Source: a virus. From it: a stretch of DNA of 29,472 nucleotides. Where the stretch lies: positions 1 to 29,472 of IMG/VR virus record IMGVR_UViG_3300028676_000250. One strand, written 5' to 3'. Under the pieces are notes generated by a model. The model was not told where the DNA came from. It ran no database searches and was given only the letters and a program-made list of their open reading frames with translations. Below are positions 4,429-29,472 of the stretch, in pieces (positions within the stretch are counted from its first letter, which is position 1; every line of letters begins with the position of its first letter). A program made the position numbers and the translations under genes.

Positions 4429-4761
4429 TTAATAAATGATAAAATCATCTTCAATAATCATATAATCAATTCCGGAGAAATTGTCCAGTAAATACTGTTC
4501 TTCGTCTGTAATAGAAGTTGCGGGCTTTAAATTTCTGGAATTGTAATATTCAACAATATCCTTTTTAAAAGCTTCTCTGCCTATTTTTAAATCTTCGTAA
4601 ACAGAAATATCATCTGTAAGGTTAAATTGATCATTGTCTTCTAAAAGGTCGAATACTTTTTCTATGCTTCCATATTCCTGCAAAGAGATGTCAAAAATGT
4701 TTTGGTTTTCTTGTGGCTTAATAGTTCCCATCGATTTTAATGTTTTGTAAATCGTTGACAT
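4429..4761 (-). CDS. LysM/gp53-like baseplate protein
   Basis: 110-aa protein when started at the ATG at 4761; a TTG one codon earlier is less likely. The pattern Q-N-I-F-D-I-S-L-Q-E-Y-G-S-I-E, then V-F-D-L-L-E-D-N, N-L-T-D-D-I and L-K-I-G resembles the LysM-like fold of gp53/tail protein X, which clamps the hub-wedge interface in contractile baseplates. The C-terminal half (about 55-110) is acidic and unassigned. It overlaps the gp25 gene upstream by 44 bp in another frame, so the two are probably translationally coupled. The call rests on motif pattern, size and position between gp25 and baseplate J. Confidence 0.65.
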   Translation of the reverse strand: MSTIYKTLKSMGTIKPQENQNIFDISLQEYGSIEKVFDLLEDNDQFNLTDDISVYEDLKIGREAFKKDIVEYYNSRNLKPATSITDEEQYLLDNFSGIDYMIIEDDFIIY

Positions 4762-5005
4762 CAAGTGTTTTTACATAAAAGTTGTCATACGATAATTGTT
4801 TATCTATTTCGTTTTCTAGTCTTAGCCTGGATGTTGCATCCGGGCTGTTAATGTATTTTTTAATTCCTACTCCAAGAATAGGAAACTCTTTATAACTTCC
4901 TTTCTGGCTTAACAATAGATGTTCTATATTTTGCTGATCTGCCTCTTTAATGGCAAAATCTCCATTTGTAATTAACAAGTCCTCATCTATGATAAAATCT
5001 TTCAT
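4718..5005 (-). CDS. GPW/gp25-like baseplate wedge protein
   Basis: 95-aa protein. The pattern L-x-I-x-N-G-D-F-A-I near residue 12, then Q-N-I-E-H-L-L-L-S-Q-K-G-S-Y-K-E-F-P-x-L-G-V-G-I, is the classical gp25/GPW signature, in which a turn precedes the glycine-rich region. The family is a conserved wedge component that touches the sheath in contractile tails and T6SS (TssE). Typical gp25 lengths are about 100-140 aa, so this is compact. It is the first gene after regulatory element 1, with a leader of about 80 nt, and its end overlaps the LysM-like gene. Confidence 0.88.
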   Translation of the reverse strand: MKDFIIDEDLLITNGDFAIKEADQQNIEHLLLSQKGSYKEFPILGVGIKKYINSPDATSRLRLENEIDKQLSYDNFYVKTLDVNDLQNIKIDGNY

Positions 5006-5092: not shown

Positions 5093-5156
5093 TAAAAATA
5101 CGCTATGCTTTTCCTTTAACCAAGATTTTAAGGGTTGCGAATCAGTAGTTTCAGTA
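5093..5156 (-). promoter_or_regulatory. Regulon element 1, baseplate/fibre block
   Basis: Box CAGTAGTTTCAGTA at 5143-5156 (minus-strand reading TACTGAAACTACTG) lies exactly 42 bp from the octamer TAAAAATA at 5093-5100 (minus-strand TATTTTTA, close to the Bacteroidota -7 consensus TAnnTTTG). It is directed at the gp25 gene. No convincing -33 TTTG is seen, which fits an activator-dependent promoter. Confidence 0.8.
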
Positions 5157-6029: not shown

Positions 6030-6512
6030 TTATTTGTATAAGATTACATAGTTTTTTCTGTCGCGTTTTAGTTTGCTCAGCACTTTCCAGTCGCTGTAAC
6101 CTTTTTTGTCAAAGTGCGGAAGATCTTTAAAGGTTTTCCAGTCTCCGCCCCAGTTCCAGTTGTATTTCTTGAAAATTTCGACACATTCCTGCCAGTCCGA
6201 AATTTGATCACCATCCCAGTCTTTTGCCGTATCCCAGGAAGCTGTTTTACCATCTATAATCAAGCAGATGTCTACTGCAAAGCCATAATTGTGAATAGAT
6301 TGTCCGCCTTTGGCATTCGTAACCTTTTTTCCTGGTTTCGTTCTTCCAAAAGCATAAAGATCCTCTTGTTCCTGAAAAGTTCTGAGACTTTGTGTGATGC
6401 GTACCTTTGCTCGTCCAGTTAATGCCAGATCGCATTCTTCGATGATTTTAGTAACTTCTTCCCTGACCGAAGGATGAAGCAAATCAATGTGTTTTTTTGT
6501 TGTTTGATCCAT
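6030..6512 (-). CDS. Endolysin, M15 family peptidoglycan peptidase
   Basis: 160-aa protein when started at the ATG at 6512 (MDQTTKKHIDLLHP); an in-frame TTG at 6536 would add 8 residues. The zinc-peptidase M15 signature S-x-H-x-x-G-x-A-x-D is present as SIHNYGFAVD (S72, H74, D81), with a second ligand site L-P-H-F-D (H133) near the C-terminus. M15 enzymes of this type (VanY, T5 endolysin) cleave L-Ala-D-Glu or D-Ala bonds in peptidoglycan. There is no signal peptide, so it needs a holin to reach the wall. It is the first gene after regulatory element 2, with a leader of about 190 nt. Confidence 0.88.
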   Translation of the reverse strand: MDQTTKKHIDLLHPSVREEVTKIIEECDLALTGRAKVRITQSLRTFQEQEDLYAFGRTKPGKKVTNAKGGQSIHNYGFAVDICLIIDGKTASWDTAKDWDGDQISDWQECVEIFKKYNWNWGGDWKTFKDLPHFDKKGYSDWKVLSKLKRDRKNYVILYK

Positions 6513-6712
6513 ATTTGTATTTATTAAAGATTTCAAATTTTGAGAATAAAAAGCCTTCCTAATTGTTTTAAGACAATCAGGGATTTTAATATTCGATAAG
6601 ATTTATTGTGTTTAACGATTTATTTACGGTTAAGAAAAACTTGTAAATAAAGCTTGAAAAGTTCCTTTTTTGTGATCACATTTAAGAAGTGAAACACGTT
6701 TTAATAACACTG

Positions 6713-6776
6713 TAAAAATACGCCGAAATAACGTGTTTGAAAAATAATATGGAGTTGTAAGTCAGTAGTTTCAGTA
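6713..6776 (-). promoter_or_regulatory. Regulon element 2, lysis block
   Basis: Box CAGTAGTTTCAGTA at 6763-6776 lies 42 bp from octamer TAAAAATA at 6713-6720. The TGTAAAAATACGC around the octamer is identical to element 1. It reads toward the M15 endolysin gene on the minus strand. Confidence 0.8.
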
Positions 6777-7415: not shown

Positions 7416-8318
7416 TTATCTCAAAGCATTATTAATTTCTTTTTTGTGTTTATAAATTGATCTTCCATAAGAGGTGTTCTGCTTAATTTTTTCTTTTGAC
7501 ATTTCTAATCCTCTATTGTAGCGGGTAGCAATAATCTGTATATCTTCTTGTGTTAATTTGTCTACTGGAGTGTGTTTAAAATCAACATCCTTTAATCTTT
7601 TTATATGTAAAGCTGCAATATAAATTCCAATGACAGGATCTAATAAAGATTTTTGTATTGCATCTCTGTTGGTTTCATTTAAACTCTCATATCCCAACTC
7701 TTTACCAGCTCTTCCTAACTGAACAGCCATATCTCCAAAAGATGTTTTGTCTGGATTATTAGTTATTGTTAGGTTTTTATCTACAACATCTGGCCCGCTC
7801 CAATCAAATTCTCTAATAGAACGGACGTTCTTTTTTAACCAATCAGGTTTGCCTCCGAATTCTGTAAATGCAATTCCTGCCAGCAAAAATGGAGGTATTC
7901 CATTCATTTTAGCTGCATGTTTTATAACTCCACTATAATACTTAACAAATTCTGCTTTTCTTTGAAATAAATAATCTTTCCCTCCTGTTGTTTTCCACCT
8001 AATTATATCGCTATTTGTCCAAGCAACATTATTAGGATTGTATTTCCACAATTTAGAAAGATTATTAGTTTGAGCATGCAAAGAGGTGATTGGGTGTTTT
8101 GTATTGAAATCATTATTTCTGACATTATTGGTGTATAAATTTAGTTGAGCCAATTCTTTGTGATTTATCTTAGAATTTTCAGCATATTTAAGCATTTCAC
8201 CAGCATTTTTATCATCCTCAATCTGCTGACGCCAAATACCAAGCATCATTTGCCTGAACCTTGCCATTTCAGAAGCGCTGGTATCTTTTAGTTCTATAGT
8301 ATGGTTTTTAATAATCAT
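7416..8318 (-). CDS. Lysozyme/transglycosylase-like tail-associated protein
   Basis: 300-aa soluble protein without a signal peptide. Residues about 120-285 look like a lysozyme-superfamily (SLT/goose-lysozyme) domain: I-P-P-F-L-L-A-G-I-A-F-T-E-F-G-G with E153 as likely acid, T-S-F-G-D-M-A-V-Q in the middle, a helix I-G-I-Y-I-A-A-L-H-I-K-R-L, and I-A-T-R-Y-N-R-G near 263-270, matching the A-x-x-Y-N-x-G motif. The N-terminal 110 residues are helical and unassigned. It follows the chaperone-like gene by 37 bp, the slot where contractile phages carry the tape-measure gene. It is too short to be a normal tape measure. It may be a wall-piercing enzyme or a cargo toxin. Confidence 0.7.
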   Translation of the reverse strand: MIIKNHTIELKDTSASEMARFRQMMLGIWRQQIEDDKNAGEMLKYAENSKINHKELAQLNLYTNNVRNNDFNTKHPITSLHAQTNNLSKLWKYNPNNVAWTNSDIIRWKTTGGKDYLFQRKAEFVKYYSGVIKHAAKMNGIPPFLLAGIAFTEFGGKPDWLKKNVRSIREFDWSGPDVVDKNLTITNNPDKTSFGDMAVQLGRAGKELGYESLNETNRDAIQKSLLDPVIGIYIAALHIKRLKDVDFKHTPVDKLTQEDIQIIATRYNRGLEMSKEKIKQNTSYGRSIYKHKKEINNALR

Positions 8319-9099: not shown

Positions 9100-9525
9100 T
9101 TAATTCCACTCAACGTGAGAGCAGATCAGGTCGAAAGAAACCGCAATTTTAGTATCTCCCTGGCTAATTCCTCTGCTGTTTGAGTTGAATTCACAGTTTC
9201 TTACGGTGTGTGTAATTACTTCGTTGCTGTCATCCAAATAACTTACAATGATGCTGAAAGGGTTGATGTCCTGCAATCTTTGTCCTTTTGGCAAAGCCGC
9301 TAAAATAGCTTCAACTTCGTAATTATATAAAGTGATAGAAGCTTTTGCCTCATATTTTCCTCTACCTCTGTGAACCGGCATATCTCCGGCACCGTAATGG
9401 TTTTCTTTAGATACTGAATCACTATAGTTTACAGCTGTAATTCCGGTAACGATATTACCTGCAATACTTACTTCGATAGATGACCAGCTGTGTTGTTGTC
9501 CGTTAATTAATGGTAATTTATTCAT
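9100..9525 (-). CDS. Tail tube protein
   Basis: 141-aa protein. The beta-rich sequence with W-S-S-I-E-V-S-I-A-G, the charged strand G-R-G-K-Y-E-A-K-A-S-I-T-L-Y and the ending I-A-V-S-F-D-L-I-C-S-H-V-E-W fit the tail-tube/Hcp-like fold of Bacteroidota contractile phages. Its size matches tube subunits (about 140-170 aa). It lies 138 bp downstream of the sheath gene, the universal sheath-tube order. A strong terminator follows, consistent with high-level expression. The call combines fold pattern and gene order. Confidence 0.85.
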   Translation of the reverse strand: MNKLPLINGQQHSWSSIEVSIAGNIVTGITAVNYSDSVSKENHYGAGDMPVHRGRGKYEAKASITLYNYEVEAILAALPKGQRLQDINPFSIIVSYLDDSNEVITHTVRNCEFNSNSRGISQGDTKIAVSFDLICSHVEWN

Positions 9526-11228: not shown

Positions 11229-11292
11229 CAAATTTAAGGCTCAAGGTTGCTTTTTCCAATTTTTTTGATGTTCAAAACCAGTAGTTTCAGTG
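11229..11292 (-). promoter_or_regulatory. Regulon element 3, sheath/tube block
   Basis: Box CAGTAGTTTCAGTG (11279-11292) lies 42 bp from CAAATTTA (11229-11236), which reads TAAATTTG on the minus strand, an exact TAnnTTTG -7 element. The box starts 2 bp after the stop codon of the 59-aa HTH gene. The remaining sequence to the sheath start (10990-11228) is a long leader without a gene. Confidence 0.85.
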
Positions 11293-11294
11293 CT

Positions 11295-11474
11295 TTAAGC
11301 TCTGGCCTCTGTAGCGAGTCCTTCATTTATAATGGTATAAATAGTGCGCTCTGTAAGGAACAATGTATCCGAAAGTTCAGATACTACAACTTTCATTTGT
11401 TTAGCTTGATTTCTATTTAGGTAGTTGATCACATAATCTCTCCTTTTGTCTAATAGTGTTCTGCTTCTTTTCAT
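11295..11474 (-). CDS. 59-aa helix-turn-helix protein, candidate regulon activator
   Basis: Short gene with an ATG at 11474 and TAA at 11295-11297. The protein begins MKRSRTLLDKRRDYVINYL and has a helix-turn-helix pattern at about 28-50 (VVVSELSDTLFLTERTIYTI: helix, turn, recognition-like helix). The N-terminus is strongly basic. It lies downstream of the tail-terminator-like gene, probably in the same element-4 transcript, and ends right next to the sheath promoter box. Its coding character is supported by a clean HTH pattern, K/R clustering and an uninterrupted frame of useful length in a gap that is otherwise empty. Binding to the TACTG-N4-TACTG boxes is a hypothesis based on size, fold and location; the exact family is not recognised. 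Confidence 0.7.
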   Translation of the reverse strand: MKRSRTLLDKRRDYVINYLNRNQAKQMKVVVSELSDTLFLTERTIYTIINEGLATEARA

Positions 11475-11593: not shown

Positions 11594-12169
11594 TTAATTG
11601 GTAATGTTTAAATCTATATCTCCTTCAACCTGATTTGGGTTTATTCCTATTATTCCCGAAGTTAAGTTATAACCCAAATCTTCTAATTCTTCATTACTTA
11701 ATCCATTATTAAAAAGGATATATTTCTTTTTTAAAATATTTTCAATTAAGGTTGTTTTATAAGTGATCTCCCAAATGAAATAATTGTTTTTATCCCAATA
11801 AACATCTTCATTAACATATTGCTTTTCTTTTACCTTAAAAGTAGAATTGGTATCTATAAAAGCATTACTAGCAGCAGGAGACAAGATAGCTTTGTCAAGA
11901 CGATATGCCATCTCGAATACCTCTTCGTAACTTGTTGATGTGAAAGAACTAATAGGTAATACGATGTACAAACAAAAAGAGACATCAGCTTTGTAATTTT
12001 TTTCAGATGAGGTTTCCCAGGAAATCGTATCATATTTAAACATTACTAAAGGTTTATCAATAGTAGTTTTAAAAACAGCATCACTGTAAAGTTGTACTGT
12101 TGGCGCATTCGTAGAAAACTCAGTTTCGATTGCGTTCTTTTTTTCGCTATAAAAGTCTTTTAAAATCAT
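11594..12169 (-). CDS. Tail terminator/completion-like protein
   Basis: 191-aa protein when started at the ATG at 12169 (MILKDFYSEKK). The longer frame to 12223 would read through the likely -7 element and operator repeats and is rejected as start. The alpha-beta pattern D-K-P-L-V-M-F-K-Y-D-T-I-S-W-E, then A-D-V-S-F-C-L-Y-I-V-L-P, then E-V-F-E-M-A-Y-R-L-D-K-A-I-L, resembles small tail-completion/terminator proteins that cap the tube. Its place immediately before sheath and tube is the usual phage order. The family is inferred from pattern and context, not a firm match. It is driven by element 4 with a very short leader. Confidence 0.6.
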   Translation of the reverse strand: MILKDFYSEKKNAIETEFSTNAPTVQLYSDAVFKTTIDKPLVMFKYDTISWETSSEKNYKADVSFCLYIVLPISSFTSTSYEEVFEMAYRLDKAILSPAASNAFIDTNSTFKVKEKQYVNEDVYWDKNNYFIWEITYKTTLIENILKKKYILFNNGLSNEELEDLGYNLTSGIIGINPNQVEGDIDLNITN

Positions 12170-12188
12170 ATGATGGATTAATTTTTTA

Positions 12189-12253
12189 CAAATATACAAC
12201 ATATGTTTTAATATATACAACATATTACGATAAAAAATGCAGTAATTTCAGTA
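12189..12253 (-). promoter_or_regulatory. Regulon element 4, terminator-like protein/HTH transcript
   Basis: Box CAGTAATTTCAGTA (12240-12253) lies 43 bp from CAAATATA (12189-12196), minus-strand TATATTTG, an exact TAnnTTTG. It overlaps the TACAACATAT repeats, so one promoter may receive both an activating and a repressing input. Confidence 0.8.
12195..12225. promoter_or_regulatory. Operator-like TACAACATAT direct repeats
   Basis: TACAACATAT occurs at 12195-12204 and 12216-12225, spaced 21 bp start to start, about two helical turns. The first overlaps the palindrome AACATATGTT (12198-12207) and touches the -7 element of element 4. Related CAACATAT/AACATAT words recur by the S24 gene start (12387-12394, 12419-12425). 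This layout suggests binding sites for the S24 repressor at both divergent promoters. Confidence 0.55.
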
Positions 12254-12378: not shown

Positions 12379-12408
12379 TAGTTTTGCAACATATAGTGGA
12401 ATATGCTG
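12379..12408 (+). promoter_or_regulatory. Promoter and operator of the S24 repressor gene
   Basis: TAGTTTTG at 12379-12386 is an exact TAnnTTTG -7 element on the plus strand. It is followed directly by the imperfect palindrome CAACATAT (12387-12394), 6 bp, ATATGCTG (12401-12408). An operator right at the start site fits autorepression of the S24 regulator. Confidence 0.6.
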
Positions 12409-12453
12409 TGAGGTGTAAAACATATTACATAAATAAAAAAAGGCAATTACAAC

Positions 12454-13254
12454 ATGGAAATACATTCTAAGATAAAACGTATTATAGACGAGATGAAGTT
12501 AAACAATAACTCATTTGCAAAGTTAATAGGAGTAACCAGCACAACAATAGACAGTATCACTATTGGTAGATTGCAAGCTGATGGAGATAGAAAAAGGACA
12601 AAACCAGGTTTTGATTTGCTTCAAAGTATCATCACACATTGTAATGTAAATCCGGATTATTTTTTTGGAGACAGTGATGAAATTTTTGTTAATAAAACAA
12701 ATAGTGAAGTTGGTTTACATTTACCAAAGATAATTACGGTAAATGAAGAAGGCGAGGAGAATATCAATTTTGTTGGAGTAAAAGCAAGAGCGGGATATTT
12801 AGACGGTTATGCTGATCCGGAATATATGGAAAGTCTTCCGTCATTTAGTATGCCAATGCTAAAAAATGGCACTTACAGGTGTTTTGAGATAAAAGGAAAC
12901 TCTATGTCGACAACGATTCATGACGGAGATTATCTTTTTGGAAAATATGTTGATAATTTTGATGATATACTTGACGGAAGAATTTATGTGATTATCAGTA
13001 AAAATGACGGAGTAGTGGTAAAAAGGGTTTTAAACCGAATTAGGGAAAGCGGCAAATTAATCCTCAAATCTGATAACAGAGACGGAAATTACCCCATGTA
13101 TTCAATTTATGCTGAGGATATTCTGGAAGTTTGGTACGCCAGTATGTATGCCTCTAAGCAAATGCCGGACCCCATTAATATTTATGAAAAGATTCATGAT
13201 CTCGAAAGTAAATTCTACGAAATGGAAGAGACTTTACGAAAAAAACTCAATTAA
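12454..13254 (+). CDS. XRE/S24 (LexA/CI-like) transcriptional repressor
   Basis: 266-aa protein. Residues about 5-70 form an XRE-type HTH (N-N-N-S-F-A-K-L-I-G-V-T-S-T-T-I-D). Residues 105-230 form an S24 peptidase domain with G-N-S-M at 148-151 (catalytic S150) and V-V-V-K-R at 187-191 (K190). A possible self-cleavage site is Ala113-Gly114 in ARAGY. The C-terminal 30 residues look like a short coiled coil. Such proteins repress phage genes until RecA-stimulated cleavage. It is divergent from the tail shaft block and shares the 200-bp region carrying element 4 and the repeats. It is the only confident repressor in the window. DNA-damage induction is inferred from the family and has not been shown here. 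Confidence 0.88.
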   Translation: MEIHSKIKRIIDEMKLNNNSFAKLIGVTSTTIDSITIGRLQADGDRKRTKPGFDLLQSIITHCNVNPDYFFGDSDEIFVNKTNSEVGLHLPKIITVNEEGEENINFVGVKARAGYLDGYADPEYMESLPSFSMPMLKNGTYRCFEIKGNSMSTTIHDGDYLFGKYVDNFDDILDGRIYVIISKNDGVVVKRVLNRIRESGKLILKSDNRDGNYPMYSIYAEDILEVWYASMYASKQMPDPINIYEKIHDLESKFYEMEETLRKKLN

Positions 13255-16865: not shown

Positions 16866-17060
16866 TTAAATACTGCTATCCCTGCTTTCTTTTTTTATAA
16901 TTTCGTTCAGGTTTTCATTTTTCTCAGATACGCTTAAAGGCGTGATATTAAAACTCTCTATAAAAATGCTTCCTTCCGATGTTTGCATTAAAGGATTTTT
17001 GAAATTACTCATGTCTGGTGTTTTAGGTGTTTCGCCTAAATCTTTGGGTGTATAATCCAT
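16866..17060 (-). CDS. Small acidic first gene of the hub operon
   Basis: 64-aa protein with no recognised family. It is Pro- and Ser-rich at the start (YTPKDLGETPKTPDMS) and then amphipathic (SEGSIFIESFNITPLS, followed by N-E-N-L-N-E-I-I-K-K). It is the first gene after regulatory element 5 (leader about 130 nt) and is followed after 69 bp by the chaperone-like gene. Phages often place a short protein before the chaperone or tape-measure region. Coding status is supported by an ATG, position right after a promoter element and biased composition. Confidence 0.55.
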   Translation of the reverse strand: MDYTPKDLGETPKTPDMSNFKNPLMQTSEGSIFIESFNITPLSVSEKNENLNEIIKKESRDSSI

Positions 17061-17198: not shown

Positions 17199-17262
17199 TA
17201 AAAATACGTTGGAAGAAGCTTAAAAACGAAAAATTGAAGGTTTGTTTTCAGTAGTTTCAGTA
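17199..17262 (-). promoter_or_regulatory. Regulon element 5, hub/spike block
   Basis: Box CAGTAGTTTCAGTA (17249-17262) lies 42 bp from TAAAAATA (17199-17206), minus-strand TATTTTTA, preceded on the plus strand by TG as in elements 1 and 2. It heads the chaperone/hub/spike transcript. Confidence 0.8.
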
Positions 17263-19775: not shown

Positions 19776-20171
19776 TTATAATTCAAGTCCTGATTTAATG
19801 TCGTAGCTGTTATTGCCCGAATAGGTGCCGCATATAAAAACTCCATTAATATAGCCCAGGCAAAAATCGCTGGATTCTTTTATTTTTGGATTTCCTTCCG
19901 GACTAGTTTTGAATACCAGAACTTCACCGTATGGTATTATCCTAGCAATTGCCAATAAATTTTGATGTGTATTCTCATCTGTTAAGTGACTTTCAAAAAC
20001 TTCATTGTCAGTTTTACTTAACAGCAGCTCATCAATGCCTTCTACGTCTGCAACAGGAATTTTTTCGCTTTTGTGTCGAAAACTATCCCAAGTATCCCAA
20101 AACTGCTGTTGCGTTGGTTTTAAACCAGTTCTAAACCATTGTTTTATGGTATTTAATGTTTGTAAAGCCAT
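19776..20171 (-). CDS. Short fibre/adaptor paralogue
   Basis: 131-aa protein. Residues 1-50 (start MALQTLNTIKQWFRTGLKPT, then W-D-T-W-D-S-F-R-H-K and D-V-E-G-I-D-E-L-L) are nearly identical to the start of the 1051-aa fibre. This is probably the module that docks fibres on the baseplate. Residues 50-131 are unique, with C-L-G-Y-I-N-G-V-F-I-C-G-T-Y-S-G-N-N-S near the end. It is the first gene after element 6 and precedes the 614-aa fibre, which has no such adaptor. It may be a short fibre, an adaptor that carries the 614-aa protein, or a truncated fibre whose C-terminus was replaced. Confidence 0.72.
   Translation of the reverse strand: MALQTLNTIKQWFRTGLKPTQQQFWDTWDSFRHKSEKIPVADVEGIDELLLSKTDNEVFESHLTDENTHQNLLAIARIIPYGEVLVFKTSPEGNPKIKESSDFCLGYINGVFICGTYSGNNSYDIKSGLEL
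20037..20171 (-). repeat. Fibre-adaptor repeat, copy 1
   Basis: This coding segment for the first about 45 residues of the 131-aa protein is repeated at 24898-25032. A 37-bp run (20128-20164 versus 24989-25025) is identical and the rest diverges mainly at synonymous or conservative positions. Such identity can support recombination between fibre genes. Confidence 0.85.
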
Positions 20172-20401: not shown

Positions 20402-20465
20402 TAAAAGTAGTAATGAAATAGGTGAAAAAAGAAAAATAGAAATTGTGTTTTCTGTAATTTCAGTA
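20402..20465 (-). promoter_or_regulatory. Regulon element 6, fibre block 2
   Basis: Box variant CTGTAATTTCAGTA (20452-20465) lies 42 bp from TAAAAGTA (20402-20409), minus-strand TACTTTTA. It reads toward the 131-aa adaptor gene with a leader of about 225 nt; the rest of 20172-20586 holds no gene. Confidence 0.75.
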
Positions 20466-21116: not shown

Positions 21117-21887
21117 TTAACCGCTAATTGGTTGTCCTGTATAATCTACATGACAGTTATTTGAGCCTAAAGAAGTTTCGGTAAATCCAATAAGTGATCC
21201 GTTGTAAGAATTTTTACTTTTGTCATTTGCAATTGTTCCCGTTTTTTCATCAAATCCTAAATCAAGCAATACATCATTTGTTGCCGTTGTTGGTACAATT
21301 TTACCTCTGGTATTAAAAAGCTCAAAAACCTCTGTTTCTGAAAGTGCTTTTTTAAAAACTTTAACATCATAAACTATTGCAGTTGAGCTGTAAATTCCCC
21401 GGTTTCCAGTTGATCCAATATAGACGGTATTTGAATCACCAACAATTCTGTTTGTCGATACGGAGTCAAAAAATACTCCGTTTTTATAAACCTTCATTAT
21501 ATATCCATCATAAGTTACACCTATTACAATAGTCTCATTTATTGTATACGGAACTGTTACTGGTTCAGCCTCTATTCCGGTTAATTGAAATGAAACCCAA
21601 AAAGTTCCATTTAATCTCAAATCAATGCTAAATGCATTACTTCCTTCAATATCGTTTATCCAGTTTGTAAAAATTACTTCATAAGCTCCTACTTTAGTGG
21701 GCTTGAATATTATATTTACTGAGAAAGGAGTTGCTGTGTTCCAATTATTAACTCCACTTAAATTTGAACTTATTACTTGATTCCCATTGAACTTGATTCC
21801 ATTATTAATCCATTTTGCTCTATCGTCCCTATTAATAAAATCTGAATTATTTGAAATTATATTTCCATTTAAATCTTTAATTAACAT
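21117..21887 (-). CDS. LamG/concanavalin-like fibre-associated protein
   Basis: 256-aa protein. Residues about 25-195 show the LamG jelly-roll pattern: G-I-K-F-N-G-N-Q, then P-F-S-V-N-I-I-F-K-P, I-G-V-T-Y-D-G-Y-I-M-K-V-Y-K-N-G-V-F-F-D-S-V, V-Y-I-G-S-T-G-N-R-G-I-Y and I-V-Y-D-V-K-V-F-K-K-A-L-S-E-T-E-V-F-E-L-F-N. Such domains bind glycans and occur in phage fibre tips. The gene overlaps the end of the 1051-aa fibre gene by 11 bp, indicating coupled translation. It is likely a fibre tip subunit or chaperone that recognises a surface glycan. No signal peptide is seen. Confidence 0.78.
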   Translation of the reverse strand: MLIKDLNGNIISNNSDFINRDDRAKWINNGIKFNGNQVISSNLSGVNNWNTATPFSVNIIFKPTKVGAYEVIFTNWINDIEGSNAFSIDLRLNGTFWVSFQLTGIEAEPVTVPYTINETIVIGVTYDGYIMKVYKNGVFFDSVSTNRIVGDSNTVYIGSTGNRGIYSSTAIVYDVKVFKKALSETEVFELFNTRGKIVPTTATNDVLLDLGFDEKTGTIANDKSKNSYNGSLIGFTETSLGSNNCHVDYTGQPISG

Positions 21888-24800
21888 CGTTAGATCCTTT
21901 CACGCTTTTAAAAGTTATTGAATTACCTGTGTTTGTTGCTCCGTATGCAAATTGAATATCAAAAATTTTGTTTGTTGTCGTATCTATAGTAACAGAATCC
22001 CCTGAAACGGAATAGATATTCATACCATCTATCAAAACACTTAAATTTGCAATCATTGCTCCCGAAATTCCTTCAGAATTAACTGTAAAAGAATAATTAA
22101 TTTCAAAAGATTTATTTGTTATCGTTAATGGAATCAATAAAGAATTTGAATTTAACAATGTTGTCGAGCCCACTTTCAAAATTATATTGAAAGTTGCTGA
22201 GGAAATCGCGCTGATCTGTCCAAACATTTTTCCTGAGAAGGACTTTCCTGTTGTTAGCATTGGATTATCTAAATTCGTACTCGAAACTAAAGTAGTGTTT
22301 CCAAGAATAGTTCCACTTAAGATAGAATTTAAAGTTGCTGTATTTATTGTTATTGGTGTTGCCTGTACAAATGAGAATAAGTTGACAACATTTCCTCCTC
22401 TTGTTGGAGTTCCATTTGAAGATAGTAATTGAACTGCCTGACCATATCCGCTTAAATTTGCATTCCCGGCATCGCTTAACATTAAAGTACCACTTGTATC
22501 TTGCAAAGAATAATTTCGTGATGCCGTGTTTGAATTTGATAAAAATGAAGAAAATGTATTAGCAATATTCCTAAAGGCAATTTTGCCGTTTAAAAATGAT
22601 TTTACTCCTGATACTTCCTGATTTGTATTTGTAGTCATATCTCCCATCCATGGCACAACTACATTTCCAATAATATCTGCTTCAATTCCGTTTATAGTTC
22701 TAACTATATGTTGATTGTTTACTTTTGCACCTTGACCATCTTCAGTTCCTGCCTTGATGTCTAAAAGTCCAAACTCTGCGCCTATTCTCATATTGCCATA
22801 AGAATTCATGTTAATAAACGGCTTGGTTCCTTCCGTCATTTCCATAATAATGGATGCGGCAGATCCATTTACCCCCAATTGTAATGCTTCAAGACTATTA
22901 ATCGTTGCTCTTTTTTGTGTTTCAATTAAGAAGTTTGAATTTTCAGTGTTTATTATTTTTGTTGCTGACATTGTAGACAACATTTGAATAGCACCTTTCC
23001 CAAAATCACCTCCTGATAATGTAGTAGAACCACCTTGACCATCAATAGAAATTCCTCCAGCACCACCTTTTAAGGCTAATTTTGAATTATTTGCATTGAT
23101 TTCAAAAACATTATTTTGATTAATAAGTGCTGTTGAGATAGAACCTCCACCATTATATGATGTTATATTAATACGCTTCGCTCCAATATCTAGAGACCCA
23201 CTTGTATGAACCCCGATTCCTGTTTCTGACTCAGAGTCAGATTTTCTCATGTTAATTGTTGAATAAGTAGAATCATCTGACTCGCTATAACCAAGGTATA
23301 CTTCTTTCTGAACAATTCCTTCACTACCGTTTTCTAATGTCTTTTGTAGCGTTATATCTTCTCTCACTGCCAATGTCCCATTAAGAATCTCGTCAGGGAA
23401 ATAGAAAGTTGATTTAGTCCCCGTAAGGTTTTTTCTAAAATTTAAAATATTACCATCTCCGTTAGTGTCGGTATAATCTATATAACCTCCATCACCTGAG
23501 GTACATAAAGTAAAAAAATCAGGATTGTAAATGCCATCTTTTCCAAAAGACAGGGATATAGAATCAGATTTGATTTTAGATTCAAACCAGTCAGTTTGCA
23601 TTACTATAGAGTTACCCGTAGTATCAGTATTGCCTTCTCCAAGTACTTCCTCAAGTGTTTGATAAATCGCTCCGCCAACAATTATATCACCAGAACCTAC
23701 TATAGATTCTCCGTTAATAGTTTTAAAATCAGATTTTGAAGCGACATCTTTATCAGATAATATAACATTTCCATTTTCATCTAATGTCAATAAATTTTCA
23801 ACATCTTGACTGGCAATTCTTATAAGATTATATGAGGCGCTATTGCTAATATATACTACTCCTGAATTGGTTACTGCCATATATCTCGGAGAATTTCCTG
23901 CAGTGCCAAAAAGGCTAACTGCTCCTGTTGGAGAAATTTTGTAAACTAAACCATTATCATAATCATTATTATGGACGTATAGATAACCATTTTCTGCAAT
24001 ATAAGGTTCGAATGATTTATAGGCTAATGAAGCAAAAACATTGGTAATAATTCCAAGATTGCTTAATGAATAAATATTTTTATCATCATCATCATACGCT
24101 GTAATATATAGTGATCCATCAGGTTTTACGCATGCAGTTCCGATTTCAAAACTTAAAGTTGCAAAATTCTTTACTGTGCCATTTGGATCTAATTTATAAA
24201 TTAAATTACGGGTCTGATAATCATAAAAATAGCCATTTGATTCCAAATCAAATCCTAAAAGGCTTATTGATAAATTGCCGGTATAATATTCAATAGTATT
24301 TGATGTAACAGTGTTTACCCTTAGTATTTTTTGCGAGACATGTTCCTGAAGGTATATATTATTGTTTTTATCAATTCCCATATGATAATAACTCAAAATA
24401 GAAGATCTTAACACAGATAAAATACCAGTGTTATCAAATTTCACTAAAATATACTTTGAAACACCATCAAAATATTCCAGGAATAAATCTCCATTATTTG
24501 GACTTACTATTATTGACCCTTGTATCAAGCATCCTACCGGAAATGAATAATAATCAATAATAGTTTTATCCAAGTTTACTTTTTTAACGATATTTCCATA
24601 AGGAAAATAAGCTGTTCCATCAATCCCGGCAGTTGGAATAACATCCTGGGTAAAGATTATTTCACTAACTGTTTTTGATTCGTTTTTTAATTTATTGAAC
24701 CTTAAACCGCTTTTTCCTTCAACCTGGCTATCAATTTCTGTAACAGAATTAATAGTTATTTTATTTCCTGTATCTGTAATATTTGACTGTACTAAATTTA

Positions 24801-25032
24801 AATTACCTTTTGAGTCGCGGTCTATTTTGGTAAGTCTGTTTGTATCTCCATTAATAGTAGGTATTTGAGGAATAACTTCTGAAAGCAATTCTTCAATACC
24901 CTCAACATCTTTCACAGGCACTTTTTCGTACTTGTGTCTAAATGAATCCCATGTATCCCAAAACTGGGCTTGTGTAGGTTTTAAACTTGTTCTAAACCAT
25001 TGTTTTATGGTATTTAATGTTTGTATTGCCAT
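21877..25032 (-). CDS. Long tail fibre with adaptor, beta-propeller and shaft
   Basis: 1051-aa protein. Residues 1-50 form the adaptor module shared with the 131-aa protein. After the DSQVEGKSGLRFNKL motif (about 101-115), residues 120-410 carry blade repeats (N-N-I-Y-L-Q-E, G-S-L-Y-I-T-A-Y-D, G-Y-L-Y-V-H-N-N, G-V-V-Y-I-S-N-S), consistent with a beta-propeller of NHL/SMP-30-like type. Residues about 430-880 are a long shaft with repeated short beta motifs (M-R-K-S-D-S-E-S-E, I-N-I-T-S-Y-N-G-G). The C-terminal 170 residues form a separate domain (T-L-N-S-I-L-S-G-T-I-L-G-N-T-T-L). The likely role is host recognition. It is the first gene of the element-7 transcript, with a leader of about 255 nt. 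Confidence 0.82.
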   Translation of the reverse strand: MAIQTLNTIKQWFRTSLKPTQAQFWDTWDSFRHKYEKVPVKDVEGIEELLSEVIPQIPTINGDTNRLTKIDRDSKGNLNLVQSNITDTGNKITINSVTEIDSQVEGKSGLRFNKLKNESKTVSEIIFTQDVIPTAGIDGTAYFPYGNIVKKVNLDKTIIDYYSFPVGCLIQGSIIVSPNNGDLFLEYFDGVSKYILVKFDNTGILSVLRSSILSYYHMGIDKNNNIYLQEHVSQKILRVNTVTSNTIEYYTGNLSISLLGFDLESNGYFYDYQTRNLIYKLDPNGTVKNFATLSFEIGTACVKPDGSLYITAYDDDDKNIYSLSNLGIITNVFASLAYKSFEPYIAENGYLYVHNNDYDNGLVYKISPTGAVSLFGTAGNSPRYMAVTNSGVVYISNSASYNLIRIASQDVENLLTLDENGNVILSDKDVASKSDFKTINGESIVGSGDIIVGGAIYQTLEEVLGEGNTDTTGNSIVMQTDWFESKIKSDSISLSFGKDGIYNPDFFTLCTSGDGGYIDYTDTNGDGNILNFRKNLTGTKSTFYFPDEILNGTLAVREDITLQKTLENGSEGIVQKEVYLGYSESDDSTYSTINMRKSDSESETGIGVHTSGSLDIGAKRINITSYNGGGSISTALINQNNVFEINANNSKLALKGGAGGISIDGQGGSTTLSGGDFGKGAIQMLSTMSATKIINTENSNFLIETQKRATINSLEALQLGVNGSAASIIMEMTEGTKPFINMNSYGNMRIGAEFGLLDIKAGTEDGQGAKVNNQHIVRTINGIEADIIGNVVVPWMGDMTTNTNQEVSGVKSFLNGKIAFRNIANTFSSFLSNSNTASRNYSLQDTSGTLMLSDAGNANLSGYGQAVQLLSSNGTPTRGGNVVNLFSFVQATPITINTATLNSILSGTILGNTTLVSSTNLDNPMLTTGKSFSGKMFGQISAISSATFNIILKVGSTTLLNSNSLLIPLTITNKSFEINYSFTVNSEGISGAMIANLSVLIDGMNIYSVSGDSVTIDTTTNKIFDIQFAYGATNTGNSITFKSVKGSNDVN
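24898..25032 (-). repeat. Fibre-adaptor repeat, copy 2
   Basis: This is the N-terminal coding segment of the 1051-aa fibre, homologous to 20037-20171, including the identical 37-bp run at 24989-25025. The proteins share W-F-R-T-x-L-K-P-T-Q-x-Q-F-W-D-T-W-D-S-F-R-H-K. Confidence 0.85.
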
Positions 25033-25294: not shown

Positions 25295-25359
25295 TAAAAG
25301 TAGAACAGAAGAATAGAAAAAGAACTAGAAAAAACCTTGTGAATTCAGTAGTTTCAGTA
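25295..25359 (-). promoter_or_regulatory. Regulon element 7, fibre block 1
   Basis: Box CAGTAGTTTCAGTA (25346-25359) lies 43 bp from TAAAAGTA (25295-25302), minus-strand TACTTTTA. It faces the 1051-aa fibre gene and forms the left half of a divergent arrangement with element 8. Confidence 0.8.
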
Positions 25360-25387
25360 GAAACAGAACTTGCTGAAACTACTGAAT
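25343..25387. repeat. 15-bp inverted repeat formed by two opposed regulon boxes
   Basis: ATTCAGTAGTTTCAG (25343-25357) pairs perfectly with CTGAAACTACTGAAT (25373-25387). The two arms are the boxes of elements 7 and 8, so this is a divergent control region. An extended minus- or plus-strand reading frame through it is not expected to be translated. Confidence 0.85.
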
Positions 25388-25434
25388 ACAAGAGGTTTGA
25401 AATTTTAAAATCACAAAGCTGGATACTACTTTTA
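25371..25434 (+). promoter_or_regulatory. Regulon element 8, 1338-aa protein gene
   Basis: Plus-strand box TGCTGAAACTACTG (25371-25384) lies exactly 42 bp upstream of TACTTTTA (25427-25434). This is the only plus-strand copy. Its likely start point is just upstream of the ATG at 25456, giving a very short leader, as in element 4. Confidence 0.85.
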
Positions 25435-25455
25435 CACCCAGAAAAACAACTAGCG

Positions 25456-28400
25456 ATGAGTAAAAATGTAATTCATAATTTCAATCTTTCAATAAAAAAT
25501 AGTACTGATATAAAAAGCTCCGAAGATTTAACCAAGGCTATCATAAAAGAGTTGGCCAAAGTTTCAAAAGAAATGAACCAGCAAAAAGATATTGTACAGG
25601 AATGGCAGGAGCAAAAAAATCAAAATGCAACTGCTATTTTAAACAATTCTAGTGCCTCAACCGAAGGAGGCGCCAACGATACCAATGTTGAAACAATCAA
25701 AAAAACAACAATGTCGATTAGCAATACTCCTTTGGTTTCTGGGGAAACAAAATCAATTCCAAGCACTCTATTCGGAGGAGGCGTTGCTGATACCACCGGC
25801 AGAACAACAATAAGTTCTGCTACATCAGACAACACTACTCCTCCGACAGCAGGAGCAGAAAACAGCTCTCTAAACTTTAGCAATGGCATAACGACTCAAG
25901 CTTATGCGAATGTTGCAGCACAACAAACTCTTACAGTACCAGAAAGCCTTCAAACAAATGGTAATGAGCTGTCTGTAGAAGTAATTAAAGCTGAGGTTAA
26001 AAAGAAATTAGATGCTGCTATTTCAGCGAATGAAACTTCAGCAATAGAGTATTGGAGAAATATTTCTAAAGCTTTTAATGAAGGTGCCACTGCTCAGGAT
26101 TTTGATGGTAAACCAAATGATATGCTGTTTACCCAATTGTATGCTATGTTAAAACAGTCAAATCAGGCAATAGAAAATCAAATTTTTAATTGGGATATCG
26201 TTCGTGAAAAAATGATTGAGTCAATTGATAATAATATACTTAAAGGAAAAATTTCTATTGACAGTAAGGTACGTTGGAAACTAATCCAAAAACAATTAAA
26301 AGATGATACAATCAATGTCGCAAATCTATTTGAACGATACAACGAGTTATTTTTATTATTGAAAGAAGTTGAAGGGCTACATTCGTTACCAAACACTCTT
26401 ACAATAACCACCAAAACCAAAATTTATCCTAATTTAAGTGCTGATAGGGTTTATGCTGATATTGGAAAAGAAAATGTTTATGTTTTCTTAAAAGAAATAA
26501 ATAACAAGGAAATTACGGGAAGTGCTGTAAATAAAGGAGCTGTTAAAATTAAAAATACTGGCGCCACTAAATTTATCGTTGGAGAAAGCCTAGATTTTAT
26601 TCTTGATGAGGTTTTAGTAAACGACATTAAGTTTGAAAAGAAAGATATCAATTGGATTGTTTATAATAGCCAAAAGAAAAATGACAAAGGAATTATTTTT
26701 ATAAACGAAGGAATTTCCTTTAGTTATAATTTTGATGCCCCAGGAAAATACAAGGTCGAAGCTTATGGTGGAAATCCTGGATCAAATAGTAAGAATAAGA
26801 AAAATGTAAAATTAGCGGCTTTTGTAGAAGTAGAAATAATCGCTCAGGAAATTACAATCGTACCTCCGGCAACTATTAAAACCACTTTTATAAGACCTTC
26901 TACAGAAGAACAGTTGTTTAAAGTAGGATTAAAAAATCCTGAAGTAAAAACATTAAATCCGTTAAAACTTTATTATCAGATTGCTTATACAAATGCAGAT
27001 AAAGTAACTACAATTTCAGACGAACAAGAAATGGATTCAACAGGTATTGTTAAGCTTGCTATGCCAAATTTAGGTGAATACAGTATTAAAGTTGTTAGTA
27101 AAGATCAATATACTTTGAATCAAAAATACAGTATTAATACAATCAAAAACTTTATTAATAACATCGAGATAATAAAGAACAAGGCCGAAAAAGATATCTA
27201 TTTATGGAGTAAATCAAATCAGGATGTTCATTTTAAAGCTCAAAGCTTTAAAATGGAGCCAGCTACACCACAGGAAAAACAAAATATAAAATGGCTTGTT
27301 TATGATAAAAACGGTCAAATATACGTTCCAGATGGTTTGCCGTTGAAATTAGAAAATAACGAGGCAGGAAAGCAATATCTAGTTAAAGGAGAATCTTTTA
27401 CCTTTCCAATTCCTAAAAAAGAAGGTGAATTTACAATTGAATCCTATAGTAATGTTAAAGAGGGGTTTAAATCAAAATCAAGTAAAAAAATATTTGTAAA
27501 ACATCCGCAAGTAACCGAAGCTTACTGGACTTATAATGACGGAAACAAAAAGAAAACATCTGGTTTTGCCGGAGAAATCAATCATATCAAAGCAAGTATT
27601 CCGGGATATGTGAATCAGCCGGTCAGAATTAAATTCTATTTAAACGATAGCAAAGACGTTAATTATTATAATGATACTAAAACCAATGACAATGGTGAAA
27701 TAGATAAAGTCTTAAAATTTGATGCCAATTTGCAGAAACATTTTGGAATTAAAAATGGAAAAACTGCCAAAATTAGATTTGAGCTGGAAGGAATACAAAA
27801 CGGAAATGTGCCTTATTTATTTAAAGAAAATACCAACGCTTATAAAGAAACTTTATTAAATGTTACAACGAGTGCAAAAATAACCGATGCTTATTTCATG
27901 TATGACGGTAATCGTGTAAATCCATTTACTCAAGTTCCTTATGGAGCAAAAGTAACAGGAATAGTTAAGACTTTAAATATGGTTGGAAAAGTTGTGAATT
28001 TGAAAATCTACAAAGATATTCATCGTCCAAAACATACCGCCAAAGCTATTGTAGACAATGAGGGAATTGCTGTCATTAATTTTACATTGAACAAAAATTG
28101 GAAGGAAATAAATGCACTATCAGGATTAATGGATACATTTTATATTGGAATTAAAGGTGTCGAATCTAAAATTTCTTTACAGAATGGGATGAATGCGGTT
28201 TCTGTGAGTGGTATAAAGCCAGCTGAAAAGAATAATTCTAAAATAGATAATACTGGCTTAGGCATGATTTGGGGAGGAAAAGTAAGTATTAAATTTAGAC
28301 AAAAAGTTGTTACAATTTGTAAAGATCTTTGGGGAGAAGATAGAAAGTATGAAATGGCAAATGCTTTAATGATTGCTATGTCTGTCGAAACTGCCGAAAC

Positions 28401-29472
28401 ATTTAGTAGCTCACTAATAAAATTAACCAAAAATGGATATGTTGCTATTTCTAAAGAAGAACATAGAGATAATCCGGATTTAGTAAAAGGAAATGCTATT
28501 GGTTTAGCTCAATTTACATTTAAAGCAATACGATCACTTATTTTAAATGAAAGAGGAATTCCAGAAAACGAAAAAACGATTACAACTATTACGCTAAAAG
28601 AAATTAATGATTATAAACAAAAATTAGCATTATTATCTCCCGAAGATCAGTTAGATTATGTTAAAGCATATTTTATGCTATTCAATAACTATAAAAAGGT
28701 TACGAGACCAGAAGATGTTTATATGATTATATTTGCGCCAAGTGCTACAGGAAAAGGAGATAATGTCAATATCTATAAAAAGTTTTTAATAGAAGAAGAT
28801 AAAAATAAAGGAAAAGTAAATCCGAATTATAGAGATAATGCTGCAATGGATATTAAAAATGACGGATTTAACAAAGGAAATAATGATAGTATAATTCAAT
28901 CCGGAGAATTGTTGGCCAGATATAGAGAAATGGAAAACAAAGGACTAAGATATGCTATTGATATCAATGAAGGTAGAAAACTTAATCAAGTTCTGGCAGA
29001 AAAAATAATAAAGGGAGGAAGAGTAACTTTTGGAGATTCTCATGTTTCAAATAAAATGGATAAGGCAATGGCTCAGGATAATATAACTGATACATCTCTT
29101 GGTAAGAATGCAAAAAGAAGTAATTATAAAAGGGCACCAGGTGGTGAGATAGAAATTTTATCTGAATTACTATATATTATGTATCAATTAAGTAAAGATT
29201 ATAGATTTAAAGTATCTGAAATTAGTGGAGCAGATCATTCTAGAAATAGTAGACATTATTTTGGGAAAGCGTTTGATGTTTCTGAGATAAATGGATTAGA
29301 TATAGGTCAAGGAATTGGAGATGAAGCAGTGGCAAATCCTAAAGTCTCAGATAAATTAATAGAAGAATTTAGATTAAAAGCATTAAGTTATGGAGCATTG
29401 TTAGTCTGGAATAAACTTAATGACAAAGTTAAAAAAGAACATCATAATCATTTTCATGTTGAAGTGAAATAG
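25456..29472 (+). CDS. 1338-aa Ig-like, dual peptidoglycan-hydrolase-like protein
   Basis: Starts at the ATG at 25456 (MSKNVIHNFNLSIKN). The frame is open back to a GTG at 25339, but that part contains boxes 7 and 8 and the -7 element. No signal peptide. Residues 1-180 are helical, then Ser/Thr/Gly-rich low complexity; 180-310 helical; about 310-930 are beta-rich, Ig-like modules (repeated V-T-E-A-Y-W-T-Y, A-K-I-T-D-A-Y-F-M-Y-D-G and G-x-I-x-x-x-K-I-F-x). Residues about 940-1095 resemble a lysozyme/transglycosylase domain (M-S-V-E-T-A-E at 975-981, G-N-A-I-G-L-A-Q-F). The end is an M15-type peptidase domain: SRHYFGKAFD (H1267, D1274) and H-N-H-F-H-V (H1332). It could be a tail-associated wall-degrading effector or a large tip protein. 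Opposite in strand to the rest but in the same regulon. The stop codon is the last codon of the window. Confidence 0.75.
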   Translation: MSKNVIHNFNLSIKNSTDIKSSEDLTKAIIKELAKVSKEMNQQKDIVQEWQEQKNQNATAILNNSSASTEGGANDTNVETIKKTTMSISNTPLVSGETKSIPSTLFGGGVADTTGRTTISSATSDNTTPPTAGAENSSLNFSNGITTQAYANVAAQQTLTVPESLQTNGNELSVEVIKAEVKKKLDAAISANETSAIEYWRNISKAFNEGATAQDFDGKPNDMLFTQLYAMLKQSNQAIENQIFNWDIVREKMIESIDNNILKGKISIDSKVRWKLIQKQLKDDTINVANLFERYNELFLLLKEVEGLHSLPNTLTITTKTKIYPNLSADRVYADIGKENVYVFLKEINNKEITGSAVNKGAVKIKNTGATKFIVGESLDFILDEVLVNDIKFEKKDINWIVYNSQKKNDKGIIFINEGISFSYNFDAPGKYKVEAYGGNPGSNSKNKKNVKLAAFVEVEIIAQEITIVPPATIKTTFIRPSTEEQLFKVGLKNPEVKTLNPLKLYYQIAYTNADKVTTISDEQEMDSTGIVKLAMPNLGEYSIKVVSKDQYTLNQKYSINTIKNFINNIEIIKNKAEKDIYLWSKSNQDVHFKAQSFKMEPATPQEKQNIKWLVYDKNGQIYVPDGLPLKLENNEAGKQYLVKGESFTFPIPKKEGEFTIESYSNVKEGFKSKSSKKIFVKHPQVTEAYWTYNDGNKKKTSGFAGEINHIKASIPGYVNQPVRIKFYLNDSKDVNYYNDTKTNDNGEIDKVLKFDANLQKHFGIKNGKTAKIRFELEGIQNGNVPYLFKENTNAYKETLLNVTTSAKITDAYFMYDGNRVNPFTQVPYGAKVTGIVKTLNMVGKVVNLKIYKDIHRPKHTAKAIVDNEGIAVINFTLNKNWKEINALSGLMDTFYIGIKGVESKISLQNGMNAVSVSGIKPAEKNNSKIDNTGLGMIWGGKVSIKFRQKVVTICKDLWGEDRKYEMANALMIAMSVETAETFSSSLIKLTKNGYVAISKEEHRDNPDLVKGNAIGLAQFTFKAIRSLILNERGIPENEKTITTITLKEINDYKQKLALLSPEDQLDYVKAYFMLFNNYKKVTRPEDVYMIIFAPSATGKGDNVNIYKKFLIEEDKNKGKVNPNYRDNAAMDIKNDGFNKGNNDSIIQSGELLARYREMENKGLRYAIDINEGRKLNQVLAEKIIKGGRVTFGDSHVSNKMDKAMAQDNITDTSLGKNAKRSNYKRAPGGEIEILSELLYIMYQLSKDYRFKVSEISGADHSRNSRHYFGKAFDVSEINGLDIGQGIGDEAVANPKVSDKLIEEFRLKALSYGALLVWNKLNDKVKKEHHNHFHVEVK

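Follow-up and report, generated by a model that had tools for sequence, protein, structure and literature searches.

A 59-residue helix-turn-helix protein as candidate activator of contractile weapon clusters in Flavobacteriales

Introduction

The R and F pyocins of Pseudomonas aeruginosa are governed by PrtR/PrtN, in which a self-cleaving S24-type repressor holds a small activator in check and the weapon promoters carry a box to which this activator binds (PMC8609362; PMC10598620). Regulators of the GerE/LuxR, BTAD and RfaH-like types adjoin eCIS loci and are proposed to regulate the operons (PMC8213781). The regulation of many contractile injection clusters has been called unclear (PMC10598620). 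Here, we describe a viral record in which a short helix-turn-helix (HTH) gene, an S24 repressor gene and a repeated promoter box occur together, and we compare it with these systems.

Results

The window, the whole stretch of DNA that we analysed, covers a contractile tail cluster; it is an IMG/VR record of 29.5 kb, open at both ends. The cluster encodes a sheath (DUF2586), tube, hub, gp25-like baseplate protein, M15 endolysin, holin, fibres and an S24 repressor, and sheath, tube, baseplate and lysis genes, the features of R-type tailocins, are all present. Family searches identified the tail sheath (DUF2586/PF10758; 9664..10989, minus strand), a target gene of the proposed activator, and the tail tube protein (phrog_4579; 9100..9525, minus strand). 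The tube gene drew one "major head protein" label in the scan of window proteins. Capsid, portal and terminase had no convincing match among the window proteins scanned, which cover all but a few ORFs of this open-ended record. The cluster looks like a tailocin because the scanned proteins include no convincing capsid or terminase.

We note that a 300-aa SLT-type protein (7416-8318, minus strand) has matches to its first ~45-50 residues in 53 loci, and over most of its length in only 3 loci. The observation also concerns L106:10079-12295, and in genome G601 the N-terminus is joined to a domain predicted to be a metallopeptidase toxin. The N-terminus resembles a sorting domain whose cargo can be exchanged.

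We refer to the 59-aa product of the ORF at 11295..11474 (minus strand, start codon ATG; MKRSRTLLDKRRDYVINYLNRNQAKQMKVVVSELSDTLFLTERTIYTIINEGLATEARA) as HTH59. It is a lone three-helix HTH protein and the proposed activator, which we studied by homologue comparison, AlphaFold2 modelling and codon analysis. Its transcript runs from 12223 to 11295 and comprises the gene of a 209-aa tail protein (11594..12223, minus strand), which is tail-terminator-like by position and inspection and has no family match, followed by HTH59. The box of the sheath promoter begins 2 bp past the HTH59 stop codon, in agreement with an earlier note on this DNA that placed the gene directly before that promoter. The same note named HTH59 as the sole small DNA-binding candidate besides S24; among the window proteins scanned, an HTH match was indeed found only in S24.

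The HTH59 homologues that we collected are 60-100% identical and come almost entirely from Flavobacterium, with 32 viral contigs and 30 species genomes as sources. The gene is kept in 60 sampled clusters. Codons 1-53 are free of stops in all 41 unique DNA versions, and each of the other five frames is interrupted by stops. The uncorrected pN/pS is 0.109, and variable sites number 23/18/47 by codon position, with the most at the third (47 of 53). The frame is thus a real gene under strong purifying selection. The residues of the recognition helix, LFLTERTIYxII, are almost invariant among homologues. The AlphaFold2 model of HTH59 alone has three helices (residues 4-21, 27-38 and 42-58) with a mean pLDDT of 87.5. 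The intact frame and the predicted helices together bear out the earlier claim that this short ORF is a genuine HTH gene, and the frame is not broken in relatives; frameshifts there would have spoken against the earlier reading.

HTH59 was assigned to no Pfam, PHROG or NCBIfam family: its HTH matches in Pfam were all below threshold, and a fold search of the PDB, in which no match had E ≤ 0.001, brought up nothing beyond homeodomains and three-helix HTHs of the generic kind. When viral contigs were rescanned with the HTH59 alignment, no new loci appeared, and a plasmid search gave no match. HTH59-like proteins with 36-41% identity occur in other Flavobacteriales (L137, L138 and L108), and this similarity suggests a broader superfamily.

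Eight window promoters carry TACTGAAACTACTG or a version with one mismatch, seven on the minus strand and one on the plus strand, each followed 42 or 43 bp downstream by TAnnTTT, the Bacteroidetes -7 element. This bears out the eight promoters of the earlier note. The composite of box, N42/43 and TAnnTTT was observed 8 times versus 0.017 expected; none of the 300 Markov shuffles behind this expectation had more than 1. On the minus strand, exact copies of TACTGAAACTACTG lie upstream of the baseplate operon (5143..5156; gp25-like gene at 4718-5005), the endolysin (M15) operon (6763..6776; 6030-6536), the gene at 16866-17060 with the hub/spike operon (17249..17262), and the large fibre gene at 21877-25032 (25346..25359; 43 bp to the -7 element). 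The other three minus-strand boxes are that of the sheath promoter (CACTGAAACTACTG, 11279..11292; 42 bp to TAAATTTG), that of the operon encoding the 209-aa protein and HTH59 (TACTGAAATTACTG, 12240..12253; 43 bp to the -7 element TATATTTG at 12189..12196, minus strand) and that upstream of the fibre gene at 19776-20171 (TACTGAAATTACAG, 20452..20465). The plus-strand box (TGCTGAAACTACTG, 25371..25384) forms the divergent promoter of a large plus-strand gene, the ORF of which is called at 25339. This ORF (25339-29472) runs past the window end and has a listed GTG start upstream of the box promoter at 25371; since the listed start precedes that promoter, its true start must lie downstream, which makes the ORF over-extended.

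Across all loci, the spacing from box to TAnnTTT was 42 bp 168 times and 43 bp 63 times, and the runner-up, 36 bp, occurred 18 times. The 123 unique 42-bp promoters gave the consensus tACTGAAACTACTG ... TTTG-N20-TAttTTTacA. The -7 box of flavobacterial sigma-A spans -12 to -5 (PMC9723704). With the -7 element placed there, the box would therefore lie at about -68 to -55, with its centre near -61.5. Class I activators such as CRP bind near -61.5. Boxes near -61 whose helical distance is fixed are compatible with activator sites. The core promoters are weak, with TAnnTTTA in the window and GAnnTTTG in the injection clusters described below.

We searched the same 299 Flavobacterium genomes separately for HTH59, the sheath and the composite promoter. 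The composite promoter was present in 21/21 genomes with HTH59 and the sheath versus 3/278 others (Fisher p = 2e-29, uncorrected for the shared ancestry of window-type clusters); a window-type sheath and, in its cluster, a strong HTH59 occur in exactly these 21 genomes. Of the 25 genomes that have a more distant sheath but lack HTH59, 24 are without the box. Each of the three composite-promoter genomes outside the 21 has one match, two of which resemble coding sequence. The third, genome G601, has one real-looking box, located before a cargo gene. The first 45 residues of the cargo protein match the window gene at 7416-8318, and its C-terminal part is predicted to be a metallopeptidase toxin domain; HTH59 was not detected in this genome despite the box. 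Several boxes are degenerate in L034 and L066, and the box at G485:C6:695528 has no obvious weapon gene behind it. Lone box-like matches in G467, G562 and nine order-level genomes were set aside, on their appearance, as chance or coding sequence. Weak HTH59-like matches in G131, G455, G487 and G603 had no composite box in the small stretches searched.

Homologues of HTH59 also occur in phages, namely Chryseobacterium phage MA9V-3 (L068:12001-12201) and two phage contigs, each about 53 kb long (L036:4718-4900 and L037:4023-4205). These were rejected as box carriers, with no convincing box in 99.8 of the 103 kb of MA9V-3 or in the parts of L036 and L037 searched.

A 55-aa homologue of HTH59 with 53% identity lies beside a different S24 gene in G587, in a cluster that encodes large PKD-type fibres, a holin and a predicted toxin. 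When the intergenic regions of this cluster were compared without bias for recurring words, TACTGCAACTACAG emerged, with nAnnTTTG 42 bp downstream. Ten further injection-type homologues were found in 346 Flavobacteriales genomes, each with this box type; divergent HTH59 proteins (53-65% identity) thus occur in 11 injection-type clusters, all with TACTGCAACTACAG. At 35 of the 40 injection-type boxes nAnnTTTG lies at exactly 42 bp, and at none does it lie at another distance between 20 and 74. The strict TACTGCAACTACAG composite was found in 10/10 homologue genomes (2-9 sites each) versus 9/336 others (one site each), with p = 1.6e-14, uncorrected for shared ancestry. A reversed-pattern control gave no matches in the 346 genomes, and the TACTGCAACTACAG type was absent from the window-type HTH59 genomes of this set. 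The G718 cluster, the sole injection-type cluster listed in full, has injection-system structural genes by sequence.

Distant copies of the TACTGCAACTACAG box precede fibre genes or a cargo-like gene, which implies a trans-acting reader. Orphan fibre and cargo genes behind TACTGCAACTACAG, at the usual 42 bp, were seen at L165-L170 (G851, G605, G812 and G825), far from the HTH59 cluster or on another contig.

The earlier expectation that homologues occur with the box held in 21/21 and 10/10 genomes; the one exception is an orphan box. The comparative evidence supports a tie of the box to HTH59, away from the S24 repressor and the tail genes, and its strongest part is that the box and spacing recur in a second, largely unrelated machine.

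The S24-peptidase-type repressor (PF00717 by family search; 12454..13254, plus strand) is divergent from the HTH59 operon and, by inspection, has the Ala-Gly (RAGY), Ser (GNSM) and Lys (VVKRV) motifs. We propose that it is an SOS-cleavable repressor of the HTH59 operon. Four AnTATGTTG sites, two per divergent promoter, are conserved among 42 unique S24-HTH59 intergenic sequences, in which the box lies farther upstream of the HTH59 operon promoter than these sites. In the window, the candidate S24 operators are the palindrome AACATATGTT (12198..12207), which adjoins the -7 element and has no other exact copy in the window, AATATGTTG (12218..12226, minus strand) over the HTH59 operon promoter, CAACATATAG (12387..12396, plus strand), directly after the putative S24 -7 element TAGTTTTG (12379-12386) and possibly autoregulatory, and AACATATTA (12418..12426, plus strand).

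PF00717 was found in the window and in L107. An S24 homologue lies within ~0.8-1.2 kb upstream in 10/10 injection-type clusters; it is 26-34% identical overall to the window S24, its N-terminus matches poorly and its DNA-binding region is clearly different. L067 is an exception to the divergent-S24 layout: HTH59 (63% identity), the sheath (53%), a perfect sheath-promoter box and two variants at 42 bp are present, no S24 match was found in the 68 kb searched of the 72-kb contig, and neither the palindrome nor a box precedes its 209-aa gene. In G541, the S24 match (G541:C1:2091540-2092324) is broken by stops (2 TAA) into two pieces, with HTH59 and boxes still present; either a pseudogene or an error in the assembly may account for the break.

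Discussion

The earlier reading of HTH59 as a master activator is supported by its co-occurrence with the box, the conservation of its frame and a predicted box position of about -61. Three alternatives bear on this reading. The S24 repressor could itself read the boxes, leaving HTH59 another role, and S24 does adjoin HTH59 in most clusters with a median identity of 95.9%. However, a box at about -61, upstream of the core promoter, is a poor repressor site, and separate conserved sites cover just the S24 and HTH59 promoters. The box is also nearly unchanged in injection clusters despite an S24 of such low identity, and it is present both in L067, where S24 is missing from the contig stretch searched, and in G541, where boxes and HTH59 are kept beside the broken S24 match. 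We consider this explanation very improbable.

Alternatively, HTH59 on the boxes could be a repressor or anti-activator. Repression is a common role among small phage HTH proteins, and the promoter of HTH59 has a box of its own. Yet the boxes lie ~18 bp upstream of -33, in fixed helical phase and with no core-promoter overlap; the weak core promoters speak against repression, and the off role is already taken by S24, which makes repression by HTH59 highly unlikely. Co-occurrence by itself names no reader, and another cluster or host factor could read the boxes while HTH59 merely co-travels. The only matches to window proteins in injection clusters are, however, HTH59, the weakly similar S24 and a fibre N-terminus, and a host factor predicts boxes without HTH59, of which there were almost none in the genomes searched. 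A third-party reader is similarly hard to credit.

We consider it very probable that the locus as a whole works as a two-step switch resembling PrtR/PrtN, from S24 through HTH59 to the box promoters. S24 would repress the operon of the 209-aa protein and HTH59 through the separate AnTATGTTG sites over its core promoter, and DNA damage would lead to cleavage or removal of S24. HTH59 would then be made, and the box at its promoter would let it boost its own synthesis. It would bind the direct repeat TACTG-N4-TACTG with one protomer per half-site and, at about -61, would recruit sigma-A RNA polymerase to the weak -7 elements, firing all other weapon transcripts.

More broadly, lone-HTH proteins of 53-60 aa probably form a family that acts as a transferable weapon switch of Flavobacteriales, with at least two machines, one box and distance, a recognition helix that changes along with the box, and reach in trans. 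The machines would be tailocins and extracellular injection systems, sharing one near-constant box at a fixed distance; TERTIYTII would pair with TACTG and SERTIYNII with TACAG. In genomes with injection systems, orphan fibre and cargo genes would be reached in trans, and the box alone could find weapon cargo.

HTH59 and its box would give the tailocins and injection systems of a large bacterial order one switch that can be tested, and would account for a gene that is easily lost under annotation cut-offs. The box is a DNA signature that led to orphan cargo and fibre genes distant from the main cluster. As a very small candidate activator, HTH59 could also probe the minimal protein needed for transcription activation in Bacteroidetes.

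The regulators described beside eCIS loci are presented, in the accessible part of that report, without a named pair of S24 and 59-aa proteins or a box (PMC8213781). The GerE/LuxR family PF00196 gave no HTH59 match at E ≤ 1, and a GerE chain reached E 0.43 by profile. HTH59 shares with C and Mor of phage Mu, activators of phage promoters, a structural match to their C-terminal HTH (C: Z 6.7, rmsd 2.1, 52 aligned residues, 23% identity; Mor: Z 6.0, rmsd 2.5, 49 aligned, 20%). Z scores of ~6-7 are common among three-helix HTHs. In contrast to C and Mor, HTH59 lacks the N-terminal (dimerisation) part, and membership of the Mor/C family was rejected, with no PF08765 match and an hhalign probability of just 9-12%.

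Membership of the PrtN family was ruled out by a search with PyocinActivator (PF11112), which matched none of 25 HTH59 members at E ≤ 1; it also gave nothing above cut-off in the window or 4 genomes, a search in which no P. aeruginosa positive control responded. The likeness to PrtR/PrtN lies in the arrangement: an S24 gene divergent from the HTH59 operon, and activator-type boxes at the weapon promoters. The differences are that HTH59 is a lone HTH whose direct-repeat box sits near -61 in Bacteroidetes promoters, that every promoter of its cluster has its own box, and that the HTH59 family appears to serve two kinds of contractile system.
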